Of a stretch of DNA of 36,936 bases, positions 3,665-18,359 are shown in pieces. This DNA comes from Candidatus Daviesbacteria bacterium (lineage in GTDB: Bacteria; Patescibacteriota; Microgenomatia; Daviesbacterales; UBA10151), in the NCBI GenBank assembly GCA_030699125.1, contig JAUYKM010000011.1, forward strand, positions 1 to 36,936. The letters are read 5' to 3'. The notes beneath the pieces were generated by a model. The model made no database searches. It had not been told where the DNA came from and saw only the letters and a program-made list of their open reading frames with translations. Position numbers and translations under genes: made by a program. How positions within the stretch are numbered: the first letter of the stretch is position 1; each line of letters opens with the position of its first letter.

Positions 3665-4882
3665 GTGAAAAAATTGATTCTGCCCATACCCTTCTTTATT
3701 GTAGGCCTCTTTTTGTTTTTGGCTACCAGTGTTTTTGCCCAAACAATCAATCTGGGGGGCACCTGGACAAGCGAAGCGGGGTATTCTTTCAAAGCTGAAC
3801 AGTCCGGTGACTCTATTTCACTTATTATCGAGGCCGGGAAAAATCCTAAAGTAATTGGTACAGCCGGACTTACCGGTACTATCAAAGGAAACTCCTTTGT
3901 TGGTCGAGTTTACGAAACAGCTGATGATTGCCCTAATCTGGGTACGTATATTCCTGCCACCGGTATTGTCTCTGAAAATACAATTGAACTCACTTACGAT
4001 GCCCCCAAGTATTATCCGGACGGGTGTGTCTATTCCGGAAATTATGAAACAGTCCGTAATGTTTTGACCCGTGTATCTAAAGAAGAGATAAAGCCGGAGG
4101 TAAAACAGGAGGATAAAGACGTTGGTTTTGATAAAGAGAAACCTCCAAGTGAGACAGAAGCTAATGCTGTTAATGAGTGGATCAAAAATAACTTAGGCGA
4201 TCTGGATATAAAAAGAATTGAGGCAGGGTCTCAACTGGAGAGACAGCCAATTATTACCAGAAAAGATCAGGAAACGGTGGTAGAAACGCCGGCTCAAGAC
4301 CAGTTTTACTTAGGTATGGCTGACACAAATGGGCTGGTGAAACTGCCGGATTCCGGGGAATTTACTGATTTCCAAGATATTTGGCATATTCCAACAGGGT
4401 CGACTATTAGGGCAATTGATAAGCCAATTAGGATTAATATTGGAACAAAGAAGGTGATGATAATTGCTCCGGGTTCGGAAGTCATGTTAACTAGCGACAG
4501 GCAAATTGATATCCTCAAAGGAACAATAGAGGTAAATAGAGTAGGAATTTTTTCTCCAGACTCTGAACAACAAGATACCGGGGCAAGTACAGAATTTATC
4601 GACTTGTTTGTTATTGGTACTCACTACTGGGTAACTCATGAGCCTGGTAAGCAGACTTTGGTTGGGGTATATGAGGGGGAAGTGGAGGTTAAAACTAAAG
4701 ATGGGAAAACAATCAGGGTTTCACCAGAAGCAGGTAAGCCAGGGGTAGTAGTGATTACCCGAAAACTTTCGCCTGTTAAGCTTGCTGTTACTGGTTTGAT
4801 ACTAGCAGTAGTTGTTGGAGGTATTGTTTTAATTTTAAGAAAAAAACTTACCTCAAAAGTATTTAATAAAAGGAAAAAATGA
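3665..4882 (+). CDS. Secreted FecR-like protein with C-terminal membrane anchor
   Basis: The 405-residue protein starts with GTG, followed by a signal peptide (MKKLILPIPFFIVGLF... to about VFA at residue 25). A first domain (about 27-133) opens LGGTWTSEAGYSF and carries two Cys. A polar linker and helical segment precede a FecR-like beta domain (about 225-355, ending GVYEGEVEVKTKDGKTIRV). A C-terminal hydrophobic helix (about 375-393) is followed by basic residues. FecR-like domains are extracytoplasmic modules first known from iron-signalling anti-sigma factors. No partner sigma factor is seen here. It leads a four-gene operon joined by ATGA overlaps and is a paralog of the next gene over the C-terminal half. 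Probably a cell-surface protein. Confidence 0.75.
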   Translation: MKKLILPIPFFIVGLFLFLATSVFAQTINLGGTWTSEAGYSFKAEQSGDSISLIIEAGKNPKVIGTAGLTGTIKGNSFVGRVYETADDCPNLGTYIPATGIVSENTIELTYDAPKYYPDGCVYSGNYETVRNVLTRVSKEEIKPEVKQEDKDVGFDKEKPPSETEANAVNEWIKNNLGDLDIKRIEAGSQLERQPIITRKDQETVVETPAQDQFYLGMADTNGLVKLPDSGEFTDFQDIWHIPTGSTIRAIDKPIRINIGTKKVMIIAPGSEVMLTSDRQIDILKGTIEVNRVGIFSPDSEQQDTGASTEFIDLFVIGTHYWVTHEPGKQTLVGVYEGEVEVKTKDGKTIRVSPEAGKPGVVVITRKLSPVKLAVTGLILAVVVGGIVLILRKKLTSKVFNKRKK

Positions 4883-6078
4883 AAAAAATTATCCTGCCCA
4901 TATTGCTTATTTTAACTGCTGTGCTTTTTCTGTCTCCAAAAGTTGAGGCTCAAACAGACAATGAACCTAAAGAGGTTACCTCCTGTGAAGAATTGAAAGA
5001 ATTATATAGTGGTAAGAAGTGTGGCAAGTATATTATGGCTTCAGCTTGGCCCTCCGGTTCAGCCAGGCCTGATCCAATGGAATTTTGGTGTTTCGTTGAG
5101 GAACCTACTTACGACCCAGCCGAGGGAGATTCTCACCTTGCGACTGTAATTAAAAGAAAACGTCCTCCTGATTACTTTATGAAGTTATCCGAATATGACA
5201 GATGCAGTGAGGGGACAGAATCGCCTGCTGATAATGTCAAAGATAAAGAGCCATCAGGATGGGAGTTGCCGGGAAAGGCTTTTGGGGAACCAGACTTCCT
5301 AGAAGAATTTCGTAAACTTTTAGAGGTCTTATTAAATCCTCGTGAGGTTCTAGAAAAGGCGAGAAAACAAGGAGTTTCCCAGGCCAAAATTGAAGAGATG
5401 GTTACTCCAGAACTGTTGGCTCGTCTTCCTTACATTACACAAGCTGACGAACAAAAGGTGTGGGACTCGCTGGCAAATTTTACCTCATCTGCCCAAAATG
5501 AGACGATCGTTGTCAAAGGCAAAATCAAAGTAAAAAGTCCAAGTCTAGATGATTTTATCCAAGTAGCACCGGAAAGAAAACCTATCTCGGTTACTTATCT
5601 TGATGCGGTCATAACCGGAGCAGATCCTGAGCCAACTCAGCTAGGATATCCTTGGGGTCCTGACGCAGGAGCCGTCATCAGTCTTCCACAAGGTACAGAA
5701 GTCGAACTCGGCACAAATGCCAGAAGCGTGAAATTAAACCAAGGAGAAATCGAGGTAAAAATTCAAAACAACAATTCTCAAAACCCCTTTAAAATCCATT
5801 CTGGTTCGCTCACCGTCGTTGCTCCCAGAACCCATTTTTGGGTTAGCCAAAATTCAGACAAAAACCAAACGGTTATTGGTGTTTATCGGGGTGAGGTACA
5901 AGTTACCACCCAAGATGGTCAAACTGCTACAGTTGTCCCGGCTGGGGATAAACCGGGAGTAGTAGTTATTTCCCAAAAACTTTCTCCGGTAAAACTGTCT
6001 GTGGCTGGTTTTGTTCTAATAGCAATTGTTGGTGGCATTGTTTTATTTTTGAATAAAAGGAGTAAGAGAAGAAAATGA
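4879..6078 (+). CDS. Secreted FecR-like protein, paralog of the preceding gene
   Basis: The 399-residue protein has a signal peptide (MKKIILPILLILTAVLF, cleavage near VEAQ). A Cys-containing N-terminal domain follows (CEELKELYSGKKCGKY), then a helical segment around residues 130-185 and a FecR-like beta domain (about 260-360, with GTEVELG, THFWV and GVYRGEVQVTTQDG). A C-terminal anchor helix lies at about 374-391. The anchor region (KPGVVVISQKLSPVKLSV) is nearly the same as that of the upstream gene, while the N-terminal domains differ. This suggests a duplicated scaffold carrying different outer domains. Its start overlaps the previous stop as ATGA, so translation is coupled. Confidence 0.75.
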   Translation: MKKIILPILLILTAVLFLSPKVEAQTDNEPKEVTSCEELKELYSGKKCGKYIMASAWPSGSARPDPMEFWCFVEEPTYDPAEGDSHLATVIKRKRPPDYFMKLSEYDRCSEGTESPADNVKDKEPSGWELPGKAFGEPDFLEEFRKLLEVLLNPREVLEKARKQGVSQAKIEEMVTPELLARLPYITQADEQKVWDSLANFTSSAQNETIVVKGKIKVKSPSLDDFIQVAPERKPISVTYLDAVITGADPEPTQLGYPWGPDAGAVISLPQGTEVELGTNARSVKLNQGEIEVKIQNNNSQNPFKIHSGSLTVVAPRTHFWVSQNSDKNQTVIGVYRGEVQVTTQDGQTATVVPAGDKPGVVVISQKLSPVKLSVAGFVLIAIVGGIVLFLNKRSKRRK

Positions 6079-13553: not shown

Positions 13554-13583
13554 TTGACAAGAGCTGATTAGCATAGCAATAAT
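13554..13583 (+). promoter_or_regulatory. Promoter of the Cys-rich repeat operon
   Basis: Consensus TTGACA (13554-13559), an 18-nt spacer, AATAAT (13578-13583), then 6 nt to the ATG at 13590. Confidence 0.6.
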
Positions 13584-13589
13584 TAGATG

Positions 13590-13853
13590 ATGCCCCGAAG
13601 AAGTCTAACCTCTCAAAAAGGAAATATTGCCCTAATTCTTCTAATAATTCTGCTAGTGTTAGCAGGAGTGGTATTTTTCCTCATTTCTAAAGGTATAGTT
13701 AAAAACCCGCTGCAAAATAGTTCTCCTAATTCTTCTTTGGGTGCTCAAATTTTTGAAAAAACACAAAACCCAATCCAGGACAAAATTCCAGAAACCAACC
13801 CATTTGCTAAAGTAAACCCTTTTAAGGGAGTGTATAAAAATCCATTTGAATAA
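13590..13853 (+). CDS. Small pilin-like anchored protein
   Basis: An ATG also exists at 13587; I prefer 13590 from the promoter spacing. The 87-residue product has a basic N-terminus (MPRRSLTSQKG), a hydrophobic helix NIALILLIILLVLAGVVFFLI (about 12-32) and a short polar tail. The tail ends with NPF repeats (ETNPFAKVNPF and KNPFE), a pattern I associate with small CPR surface proteins. The QKG-helix arrangement resembles prepilin-like signals without Glu5. The next gene starts about one base after the stop codon, so this small protein is probably co-made with the Cys-rich repeat protein. Confidence 0.7.
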   Translation: MPRRSLTSQKGNIALILLIILLVLAGVVFFLISKGIVKNPLQNSSPNSSLGAQIFEKTQNPIQDKIPETNPFAKVNPFKGVYKNPFE

Positions 13854-13854
13854 T

Positions 13855-15309
13855 ATGAAACTTAATACTTTAATCCTTCTGATCGCCACACTCATACTGT
13901 TTCTGATAGGATCCCATACACCTGGGGCAGTTTTTGGTGCAACTGGGGGGTTATCCGAAGCACAAGTTACCAAGCAGTATGGTGTTACATTCCCTGTTAC
14001 AGAGCTGAATAACTGTGGAAGCATAGCAGAATGTGGAGCTTATTGTCGGAAAGACGGCAACCTGCCTTCTTGTATGAAGTTTGTTAATACACATCAGCTC
14101 ACCAAAGCGGATGTCTTATCATTTAATATTTCAGAGCTTGGTAACTGTCAGATAGGATCTGATTGCCGCAATTTTTGTAACCGGGATGAAAACATTGCCC
14201 AATGTATTGATTTTGCTGATAAATACGACCTGCTCTCACCCAGTAATATTGAAATATCGCGGGCATTCACTAAAGCAATCGGCTCCGGCGGGACTCCGGG
14301 AGGTTGCAGAACACTTGAAGAATGTAACAGTTACTGTGATAGTAGTAGCCATACCAATGAGTGTCTTGACTATGTTGGTAAGAAAAAGTTAGTGGTGGAA
14401 GAGCAGTTGAGTGCTGCACGCAAGGTGGCTGAGGGCTTTAGACAGGGAATAGAAACCCCTGGAAAGTGCCGGGGTATCACAGAATGCGATGATTATTGTA
14501 TTGATGAGGCTCATTTTAATGAATGTGCAGTTTATGCCCAGAAAGTTGGTTTTTACCCGAGTGAGATAGAGGCAGGCAAGGCTGGCAAGTTTATAGCCAT
14601 GGCTACGCAAGGGGTCACACCAGGGGGTTGTAAATCAAAGGAGGCTTGTGATGCGTACTGTGCAATTGCTACCCACGGCGTAGAATGCACTGATTTTGCT
14701 GTTTCTGCAGGACTTTTATCTAAGGATGAAGCCGAAGCTAGTAAAAAGTATGGTGGAGCAGGTCCGGGGGGTTGTAAGTCAAAAGATGAGTGCAGCACCT
14801 TTTGTGACCAGCCAGCAAACCAAGATACTTGTCTCCAATATGCCAAGGAACATAATATCCCAATAGATTTCAAAGGGCCGGGGGGGTGTAGCGACCAAGC
14901 TTCATGTACGGCTTATTGCCAACAGCACACGGATAATCCAGAATGTCAGAAAATGGGTGGGCAGTATGGTGGAACTAAAGGTCCAGGTGGTTGTAGTGAT
15001 GAAGCATCTTGTAAAGAATATTGCATGAAAAATTCTTCAGATGCAGAGTGTCAAAAAATGGCAGGACAATATGGTGGAATGAAAGGACCGGGCGGGTGTA
15101 ATTCCATGGAATCTTGTACTTCATATTGTAAATCTAATCCTAAAGATGCTGAGTGTGCACAGTATGCCGGGAGTGCTGGACAATATGGCGGATTTAGCGG
15201 TCCTGGAGGATGTAGCGATGAGGCTTCTTGTACCTCTTACTGTGAGTCAAACCCTAAAGATTCAGCTTGCGCCCCGTATGTTGGTCAATATGGCGGAGGA
15301 AAGCAGTAA
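13855..15309 (+). CDS. Secreted protein with ten tandem four-cysteine repeats
   Basis: I use the ATG at 13855; a TTG nine bases earlier is in frame. The 484-residue protein has a signal peptide (MKLNTLILLIATLILFLIG, cleavage near VFGA). Ten repeats of a four-Cys module follow, spaced C-x5-C-x3-C-x8-C. The first two lack the PGGC opening. From repeat 3 on each starts PG-GC or PGKC, and the last four are shorter, separated by QYGG-containing linkers. About 40 Cys would form roughly 20 disulfides, so the protein acts outside the cytoplasm. I do not recognise a named domain. It follows a small pilin-like protein in the same operon and may form an extended surface fibre or adhesin (inference). Confidence 0.85.
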   Translation: MKLNTLILLIATLILFLIGSHTPGAVFGATGGLSEAQVTKQYGVTFPVTELNNCGSIAECGAYCRKDGNLPSCMKFVNTHQLTKADVLSFNISELGNCQIGSDCRNFCNRDENIAQCIDFADKYDLLSPSNIEISRAFTKAIGSGGTPGGCRTLEECNSYCDSSSHTNECLDYVGKKKLVVEEQLSAARKVAEGFRQGIETPGKCRGITECDDYCIDEAHFNECAVYAQKVGFYPSEIEAGKAGKFIAMATQGVTPGGCKSKEACDAYCAIATHGVECTDFAVSAGLLSKDEAEASKKYGGAGPGGCKSKDECSTFCDQPANQDTCLQYAKEHNIPIDFKGPGGCSDQASCTAYCQQHTDNPECQKMGGQYGGTKGPGGCSDEASCKEYCMKNSSDAECQKMAGQYGGMKGPGGCNSMESCTSYCKSNPKDAECAQYAGSAGQYGGFSGPGGCSDEASCTSYCESNPKDSACAPYVGQYGGGKQ

Positions 15310-15475: not shown

Positions 15476-16114
15476 ATGAAAAATCTAATATTATTTTTCG
15501 CTGCAGTTGTTGTAGGAATTTTTACCATGTTTGGTGCGCAATCTCTTAAAGTTAAAAGTAATTCAAATCTTGACGCTCAGTTTACTAAAACTAGTTTATT
15601 TTCTTCTGATAAAGCACCGCGTGACTCTTTAGTTGGCAATATTGTAACTTTATCTGGTGAGGTTGCTTGGCAATCTAGAGAAGCGACAGAACCAGCAAAA
15701 ATTAACTCTGTTAGACTTATCCAACAGGGAGAAGAACTAAAAACAGCAACAGGTAGTGCTACAATCAATTTTGAGAATGCTGCAAAACTAGTTATCTCCC
15801 AAAATTCTGAGATTAGCTTTGCACAAACCCTGCCTGCTAACTTTGTTTTTGTCCAAAATATGGGAACAGTTGAATATAACAGATTAGGAAAAATTCCTTT
15901 ATCTATAAGAGTAATGCACCTGTTAATAGATCAGGATTTAGGAGATATTATGGTTTCGATAGATGAAGATAAACAGAGGGTGATAGTTGATGTTAAAAAC
16001 GGAAAAATAACTGCTGTCTTTAATGACCTTGAATTTAACAGCAAGCTATTTAATGTTAGTGAAGGGAAGAGACTAATTTTTAACGATGATACCAGAGAAG
16101 CTGAAGTTAAATAA
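15476..16114 (+). CDS. Secreted FecR-like domain protein
   Basis: The 212-residue protein has an N-terminal hydrophobic signal or anchor (MKNLILFFAAVVVGIFTMFG). A FecR-like beta domain then opens VGNIVTLSGEVAWQSREA (about 53-70) and continues LIQQGEELKTATGSATINFENAAKLVISQNSEISFA (about 81-116). It has no C-terminal anchor, unlike the two FecR-like proteins at 3665 and 4879. No sigma factor or TonB receptor is nearby, so a classical FecR signalling role is unlikely. It ends one base from the stop of the convergent GH18 gene. Confidence 0.78.
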   Translation: MKNLILFFAAVVVGIFTMFGAQSLKVKSNSNLDAQFTKTSLFSSDKAPRDSLVGNIVTLSGEVAWQSREATEPAKINSVRLIQQGEELKTATGSATINFENAAKLVISQNSEISFAQTLPANFVFVQNMGTVEYNRLGKIPLSIRVMHLLIDQDLGDIMVSIDEDKQRVIVDVKNGKITAVFNDLEFNSKLFNVSEGKRLIFNDDTREAEVK

Positions 16115-17356: not shown

Positions 17357-17479
17357 GTGAAAGGAGGACAGTTAGTGCAAGTAAGGGGTAGATTACCTCT
17401 TTTTGCCCTAAATATGGGATATGAACCTACGAGTAGGGATAGTTGGTTTACCCAACGTTGGGAAGAGTACACTTTTTAA
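17357..17479 (+). other. Possible upstream ORF with strong SD overlapping the start of ychF
   Basis: TATAAT at 17338-17343 is followed by AAAGGAGG (17360-17367) and, 7 nt later, GTG at 17375. That opens a 34-codon frame ending at TAA 17477-17479. It overlaps the first 59 nt of ychF in another frame. A GTG at 17357 is also in frame. The peptide is not recognised. It may be a leader peptide that couples translation into ychF. Confidence 0.35.
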
Positions 17480-18359
17480 TGCTCTTTTAAAAAAAAGAGT
17501 AGCTTTGAGCGCCAATTATCCTTTTGCCACAGTGGAGCCAAATATTGGGGTAGTTGCTGTACCTGATGCTCGTCTGGAAAAACTGGCGGAATTGGTGAAA
17601 TCCGAGGAAAAGATGGATTCACTCCCTCCGATTGTGCCTGCTGTTTGCGAATTTGTGGATATAGCGGGACTCGTTAAAGGAGCAAGCCAGGGTGAGGGAT
17701 TAGGCAACCAGTTTTTAGCTCACATCAGAGAAGCAGATGCCATAATTCATGTTCTGAGAGATTTTGAAGATTCGGATATTATCAGAGCTGGAGGTTCCAA
17801 AAATGCTGAGGAAGATAAAAAACTGGTAGAAACAGAGCTGGAATTGGCTGATTTGGACAAGGTAGATAAATTATCTAAAAAACCTGTCCTTTATGTTTAC
17901 AATGTTTCAGAAAGTGAATACGCAGACAAGCTGCGAGATCCTTCGCTAATCACTCAGGATGACAAATTAGTCATTTGCGCAAAACTGGAGGAGGAGTTGG
18001 CAGATCTAAATGAAACAGAAAGAATTCAGTATCTGAAAGAGCTGGGGATTGAGGAGACTGGGTTAGAAAGACTAATTAAAAAAGCCTATTCTTTATTGGG
18101 TTTAATTTCGTTTTTAACAGCCGGGAAAAAAGAAGTAAGAGCTTGGACCGTGAAATCCGGCACTAAAGCCCCACAAGCTGCCGCAGTAATCCATACTGAT
18201 TTTGAAAAAAAATTTATCAGGGCAGAAGTGGTGGAATATGAGAAACTAATAGAAGCCGGTTCTCATGTTTCAGCAAAATCTAAAGGTTGGGTCAGAACTG
18301 AAGGAAAAGATTATATAATGCAGGATGGAGATGTGGTGGAATTTTTGATAGGAAGTTAA
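17421..18359 (+). CDS. ychF: YchF/OLA1 family ribosome-associated GTPase-like ATPase
   Basis: The 312-residue protein carries G1 GLPNVGKST (about 9-17), a YPFATVEPN switch, G3 DIAGLVKGASQGEGLGNQFL (about 77-96), the YchF-type NxxE motif in YNVSE and a C-terminal TGS domain (about 226-311). YchF binds 70S ribosomes and hydrolyses ATP in preference to GTP. The usual length is about 364 residues, so roughly 50 are missing. The loss falls mainly in the helical coiled-coil region after G4. An in-frame TAA just upstream makes the ATG at 17421 the earliest possible start. No SD precedes it, and a small ORF with a strong SD overlaps it. Confidence 0.95.
   Translation: MNLRVGIVGLPNVGKSTLFNALLKKRVALSANYPFATVEPNIGVVAVPDARLEKLAELVKSEEKMDSLPPIVPAVCEFVDIAGLVKGASQGEGLGNQFLAHIREADAIIHVLRDFEDSDIIRAGGSKNAEEDKKLVETELELADLDKVDKLSKKPVLYVYNVSESEYADKLRDPSLITQDDKLVICAKLEEELADLNETERIQYLKELGIEETGLERLIKKAYSLLGLISFLTAGKKEVRAWTVKSGTKAPQAAAVIHTDFEKKFIRAEVVEYEKLIEAGSHVSAKSKGWVRTEGKDYIMQDGDVVEFLIGS

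Follow-up and report, generated by a model that had tools for sequence, protein, structure and literature searches.

The NPF gene and the module gene

The window, a stretch of 36,936 nucleotides from a Candidatus Daviesbacteria genome, carries two adjacent genes: an NPF gene for a small membrane protein and a module gene for an exported cysteine-rich protein (Table 1). Translation of positions 13855-15306 yielded 484 amino acids with all 40 Cys in ten modules and a spacing of exactly 5/3/8 residues, in agreement with the sequence-only reading of this DNA. Modules 3 and 5-10 start with PGGC, module 4 with PGKC and modules 1-2 with NNC or GNC; a conserved FPVxEL(G/N)NC start of module 1 follows the hydrophobic N-terminus. 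The linkers after the fourth Cys measure 24, 33, 34, 34, 28 and 18 residues, then 15, 15 and 18, and QYGG follows each of modules 7-10. As had been proposed, these last four modules are shorter and more alike, with 42-65% identity among them compared to 19-48% among pairs of modules 1-6.

Table 1. Features of the NPF/module locus (positions in the window)
Feature	Position	Strand	Description or basis
Sigma-70-type promoter (predicted), TTGACA-N18-AATAAT	13554..13583	+	immediately 5' of NPF gene
NPF gene, first of pair	13587..13853	+	88-aa single-pass membrane protein (87 from ATG at 13590)
Predicted TM helix of NPF protein	13626..13688	+	sequence, alignment, model of relative L056 (helix 2-32)
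Conserved C-terminal tail of NPF protein, ETNPFAKVNPFKGVYKNPFE	13791..13850	+	alignment of 31 rows
Module gene	13855..15309	+	484-aa exported protein, 40 Cys, ten C-x5-C-x3-C-x8-C modules
Hydrophobic N-terminus, probably Sec signal peptide (~residues 1-31)	13855..13947	+	sequence; pLDDT low over 1-31
Modules 1-6, long spacing, fixed block	14014..14832	+	counterparts in close relatives
Modules 7-10, short, QYGG linkers, variable copy number	14887..15270	+	translation and comparison with relatives

The preceding gene had been described as encoding an 87-residue anchored NPF protein about one base upstream, and its end is indeed separated from the ATG of the module gene by 1 nt. The protein contains three NPF motifs together with one NPL and one NPI. 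Across the aligned family, the N and P of the tail are invariant or nearly so, and the tail is free of catalytic and Cys residues. Basic residues (RR, K) precede the TM helix, which by the positive-inside rule points to an N-in, C-out orientation with an extracytoplasmic NPF tail.

The promoter-like site matches the consensus at 11 of 12 positions. Note that the promoter scan overall returned about as many sites as were found in shuffles, so that this call depends on the position and strength of the site. TTGAC and -10-like boxes occur at the equivalent position in most near relatives, and the pair thus looks like a transcription unit of its own. The -10 box lies very close to the NPF start codon (13554-13590) with no room for a leader, as in many relatives, and the NPF mRNA is possibly leaderless.

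Conserved linkage of the two genes

Of 41 genes encoding at least three modules, 40 were directly preceded by the NPF gene. Among 41 distinct pairs the median gap was 3 nt, with 36 gaps falling between -4 and +17 and seven pairs overlapping by 4 nt. Conversely, all 13 matches to the NPF profile at E<=2.4e-7 in 380 genomes were located directly upstream of a module gene; weaker matches were TM-helix matches, with no NPF tail among those read. The sole partnerless gene with three or more modules (L066) may be decaying, as the matched stretch of its genome has two in-frame stops. Two genomes, G033 (L060, partly masked) and G012, contained scattered single-module matches only, and no partner was found. 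Sequence comparison thus shows the two genes to be strictly linked, with the NPF gene first behind a promoter-like site. The sequence-only reading depended in part on this linkage, which proved to be conserved across Patescibacteria.

One of the 41 pairs (L086/L061, genome G225) is divergent and lacks a canonical array: its NPF protein precedes a protein of 599 amino acids or more that retains hardly any canonical module, possibly an early or derived form.

Paralogous pairs within one genome retain type-matched partners. The distance matrices of the two partners correlate (r=0.65, 39 pairs, permutation p 0.0002), with part of this correlation due to shared phylogeny; the signal may reflect shared ancestry only. 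Judged from substitution rates, both genes are under purifying selection, with dN/dS relative to the window of ~0.15-0.19 (module gene) and 0.21-0.23 (NPF gene), some comparisons being close to saturation at synonymous sites. Because the Cys spacing is kept in orthologues, dN/dS is low and the pair recurs, we do not attribute the Cys pattern to chance.

Distribution

A scan of ~85,000 species identified 19 loci. All 17 loci with a title naming the group belong to candidate-phyla bacteria, the other two titles stating only 'bacterium'. The groups comprise Daviesbacteria, Levyibacteriota, other Microgenomates, Azam-, Kaiser-, Nealson-, Nomura-, Yanofsky-, Jorgensen-, Uhr- and Wolfebacteria. Note that the scan requires near-exact short peptides and therefore does not prove absence outside the candidate phyla. 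Searched phages and plasmids gave no match. By profile search, the module protein was detected in 15 of the 380 genomes sampled from the phylum, patchily and in many families, indicating that the pair is not a general structural component.

The genome of the window encodes a second, different NPF/module pair (L003, 8676-8927 and 8933-10735, forward strand). A glycosyltransferase gene and a PBP1A-like gene flank this pair, and its module protein has added W-rich four-Cys repeats, for a total of 50 Cys.

Module layout among relatives

The window protein and its five close relatives contain 8-12 modules. Modules 1-4 and 6 have 1:1 counterparts in all five relatives and module 5 in two, while the middle short modules vary. 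The idea of a recent expansion of the short modules holds only in part: their number is variable, but the last one is old, since module 10 of the window shares 90-94% identity with the last module of three relatives and at most 65% with its own neighbours.

Modules are ~53 residues long (48-54 in the core), and the short ones 35-38. In the core shared by relatives, module starts are ~51, 53, 53, 53 and 48 residues apart; in the window subfamily the distances are 44, 53, 54 and so on. C-terminal to the core the relatives diverge into short QYGG modules, W-rich four-Cys units, YTTP repeats and P/Q-rich stretches. Many end in a short hydrophobic tail, which is missing from the window subfamily. 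In three loci (L013, L015, L058) the module proteins run on into long YTTP/YYTP repeats after the Cys core.

Cysteine pairing and structure models

After removal of the signal peptide, the Cys count was even in 36 of 36 complete module proteins, favouring full disulfide pairing. Cys residues outside the strict modules were present in 28 proteins, and their number was even in all 28; these proteins are related and thus do not represent 28 independent trials, while the extra Cys differ in number and place. Together these observations strongly indicate that every Cys is paired, with two disulfides in each module, and that the three-helix modules thereby form a rigid array. The extracytoplasmic disulfide system postulated earlier is partly represented: two DsbA-like proteins of the Thioredoxin_4 type, with a hydrophobic anchor at the N-terminus and a CPxC-type site, are encoded in the genome, whereas the VKOR and DsbB profiles had no match in it.

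AlphaFold predicted helices in all modules of the window protein with a mean pLDDT of 73. For the relative L056, most of the core had a pLDDT of 88-96, and each module comprised three helices. This relative was modelled as one chain, with the NPF and module frames in phase and the intervening stop read through. The NPF tail had a pLDDT below 50 and no confident placement in this model (the underlying alignment had little depth and hardly any pairing), so that the modelling lends no support to NPF docking. Foldseek searches with both models against PDB and viral models returned no match at E<=0.001; among the best PDB matches were PPR/TPR-type helical repeats at E>0.3. The modelled module is probably a new repeat fold.

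Comparison with known families

Sequence searches of Pfam, NCBIfam and PDB gave no match for the window module protein, and 28 relatives, searched as single proteins and profiles, gave no consistent match in these libraries. Two members weakly resembled a defensin-like model (E 0.0037). In these searches no known family fitted the module, as the sequence-only reading required. A description of the NPF/module family was also not found in the open-licence papers searched. The family is real, conserved and undescribed in the searched libraries.

In its working the module protein would be closest to the Sel1-like Hcp proteins (HcpB, HcpC), which are secreted helical tandem repeats with one disulfide staple per repeat. 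The Sel1/Hcp repeat consists of two helices, about 36-44 residues and two Cys. For the module protein, Cys parity and the AlphaFold model agree with a disulfide-stapled helical solenoid, and the helical-repeat proteins among the top Foldseek matches were not significant. In contrast, the window modules have three helices and four Cys in ~53 residues (35-38 in the short form), and the Sel1 (Pfam) profile gave no match at E<=0.05 in any of the 28 members; the protein is not a member of this family. Alpha-hairpinins are likewise four-Cys helices stapled by disulfides, with C-x3-C...C-x3-C in two helices, but all ten window modules follow C-x5-C-x3-C-x8-C and have a third helix.

Like type IV pilins, the NPF protein is short with one N-terminal hydrophobic helix, and some members have KG before the helix. 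However, the earlier designation 'pilin-like' was not borne out. No pilin profile reached the cut-off with NPF proteins (isolated weak matches to Pilin_N, E 0.012, and TadE, E 0.038, in one member each), the prepilin-like KG motif is missing in many NPF rows, and no pilus genes adjoined those pairs whose neighbourhoods were read.

Cys-rich extracellular proteins with a proposed role in attachment have been reported from Peribacteria, averaging ~1,655 residues and with weak similarity to Myxococcus Cys-rich repeat proteins and pappalysin (PMC4736985). They share with the module protein the origin in candidate-phyla bacteria, export and Cys richness. As far as the available description goes, they have neither an NPF partner nor a C-x5-C-x3-C-x8-C module and, judged by that description, form a different, much larger group (PMC4736985).

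Proposed function and alternatives

From the sequence evidence we propose, with a probability of roughly 0.5, that the pair is a two-gene envelope cassette of Patescibacteria in which the NPF protein anchors or guides the disulfide-stapled repeat protein at the cell surface. The module protein would be exported by Sec and form a stapled helical rod. The NPF protein would reside in the membrane with its tail outside and hold the repeat protein or guide its assembly. On inspection, neither window protein has an LPxTG-like motif, C-terminal TM or basic tail, while three sortase genes are located elsewhere in the genome; as both proteins lack a sortase signal, attachment would be non-covalent. The conserved N-terminal modules would form the anchored part, leaving the C-terminal part, which changes fast and consists of extra modules or of QYGG, W-rich, YTTP or P/Q-rich repeats, exposed to the surroundings and perhaps to a host cell. 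We regard this anchoring mechanism as no more than a good working hypothesis. Host contact or adhesion is plausible, as a guess from lineage, variability and surface location. A more specific version, in which a Patescibacteria-specific membrane-bound triple-NPF peptide captures a new three-helix repeat protein to build sortase-free, host-contacting rods, is tentative.

The position of the NPF gene in front and the 1:1 pairing would also suit a membrane-bound pilot or chaperone for secretion and oxidation, with the mature module protein released as a soluble factor. The window module protein has no obvious anchor, being without sortase signal and C-terminal TM, as such release would predict. 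The short hydrophobic tail in many relatives would instead suit retention, and an NPF tail devoid of catalytic and Cys residues is unexpected in an oxidation helper; we consider this role unlikely, yet worth keeping in mind. The sequence-only reading had suggested a possible surface appendage or adhesin for host attachment; in such a structure the modules would be the binding units and the NPF protein would form polymers as pilins do. Export, the variable repeat number and C-terminal regions, the restriction of the pair to Patescibacteria so far and the type IV pilus-type ATPases of the genome are compatible with this view. However, nothing pointed to polymerisation, and together with the negative pilin comparison this makes such an appendage quite improbable.

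Small repeats rich in disulfides are often found in inhibitors, and the weak defensin-like resemblance would fit a secreted inhibitor or antimicrobial directed at competitors or host enzymes. The window protein matches no inhibitor or toxin family, though, and a membrane partner that is nearly always present, as well as the length of the array and the strict order of its N-terminal block, argue against such a factor, to which we give little credence. A metal-binding or redox-active thiol protein, suggested by the 40 Cys, is the least credible: the even Cys numbers, both mature and extra, the export of the protein and the encoded DsbA-like oxidoreductases all point away from free thiols.

Little is known of how episymbiotic Patescibacteria assemble and display their surface proteins, and the pair provides a defined two-gene target. 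It is compact, can be recognised with simple profiles, occurs in several candidate phyla and is missing from the family libraries searched, and it offers partner variants that are matched by nature, together with a probable new repeat fold. If true, NPF capture would constitute a non-covalent, sortase-free display of fast-evolving repeat rods.

Neighbouring genes

Three exported proteins that are FecR-like by eye are encoded on the forward strand at 3665-4882, 4879-6078 and 15476-16114. The last of these lies directly downstream of the module gene and has no Pfam match above cut-off. A YchF/OLA1-type GTPase of 312 residues (17421-18359, forward strand) is ~60 residues shorter in the middle than a full-length copy in L032 (6428-7552); the missing part is probably the coiled-coil hairpin region. 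The full-length copy in L032 adjoins a module gene.
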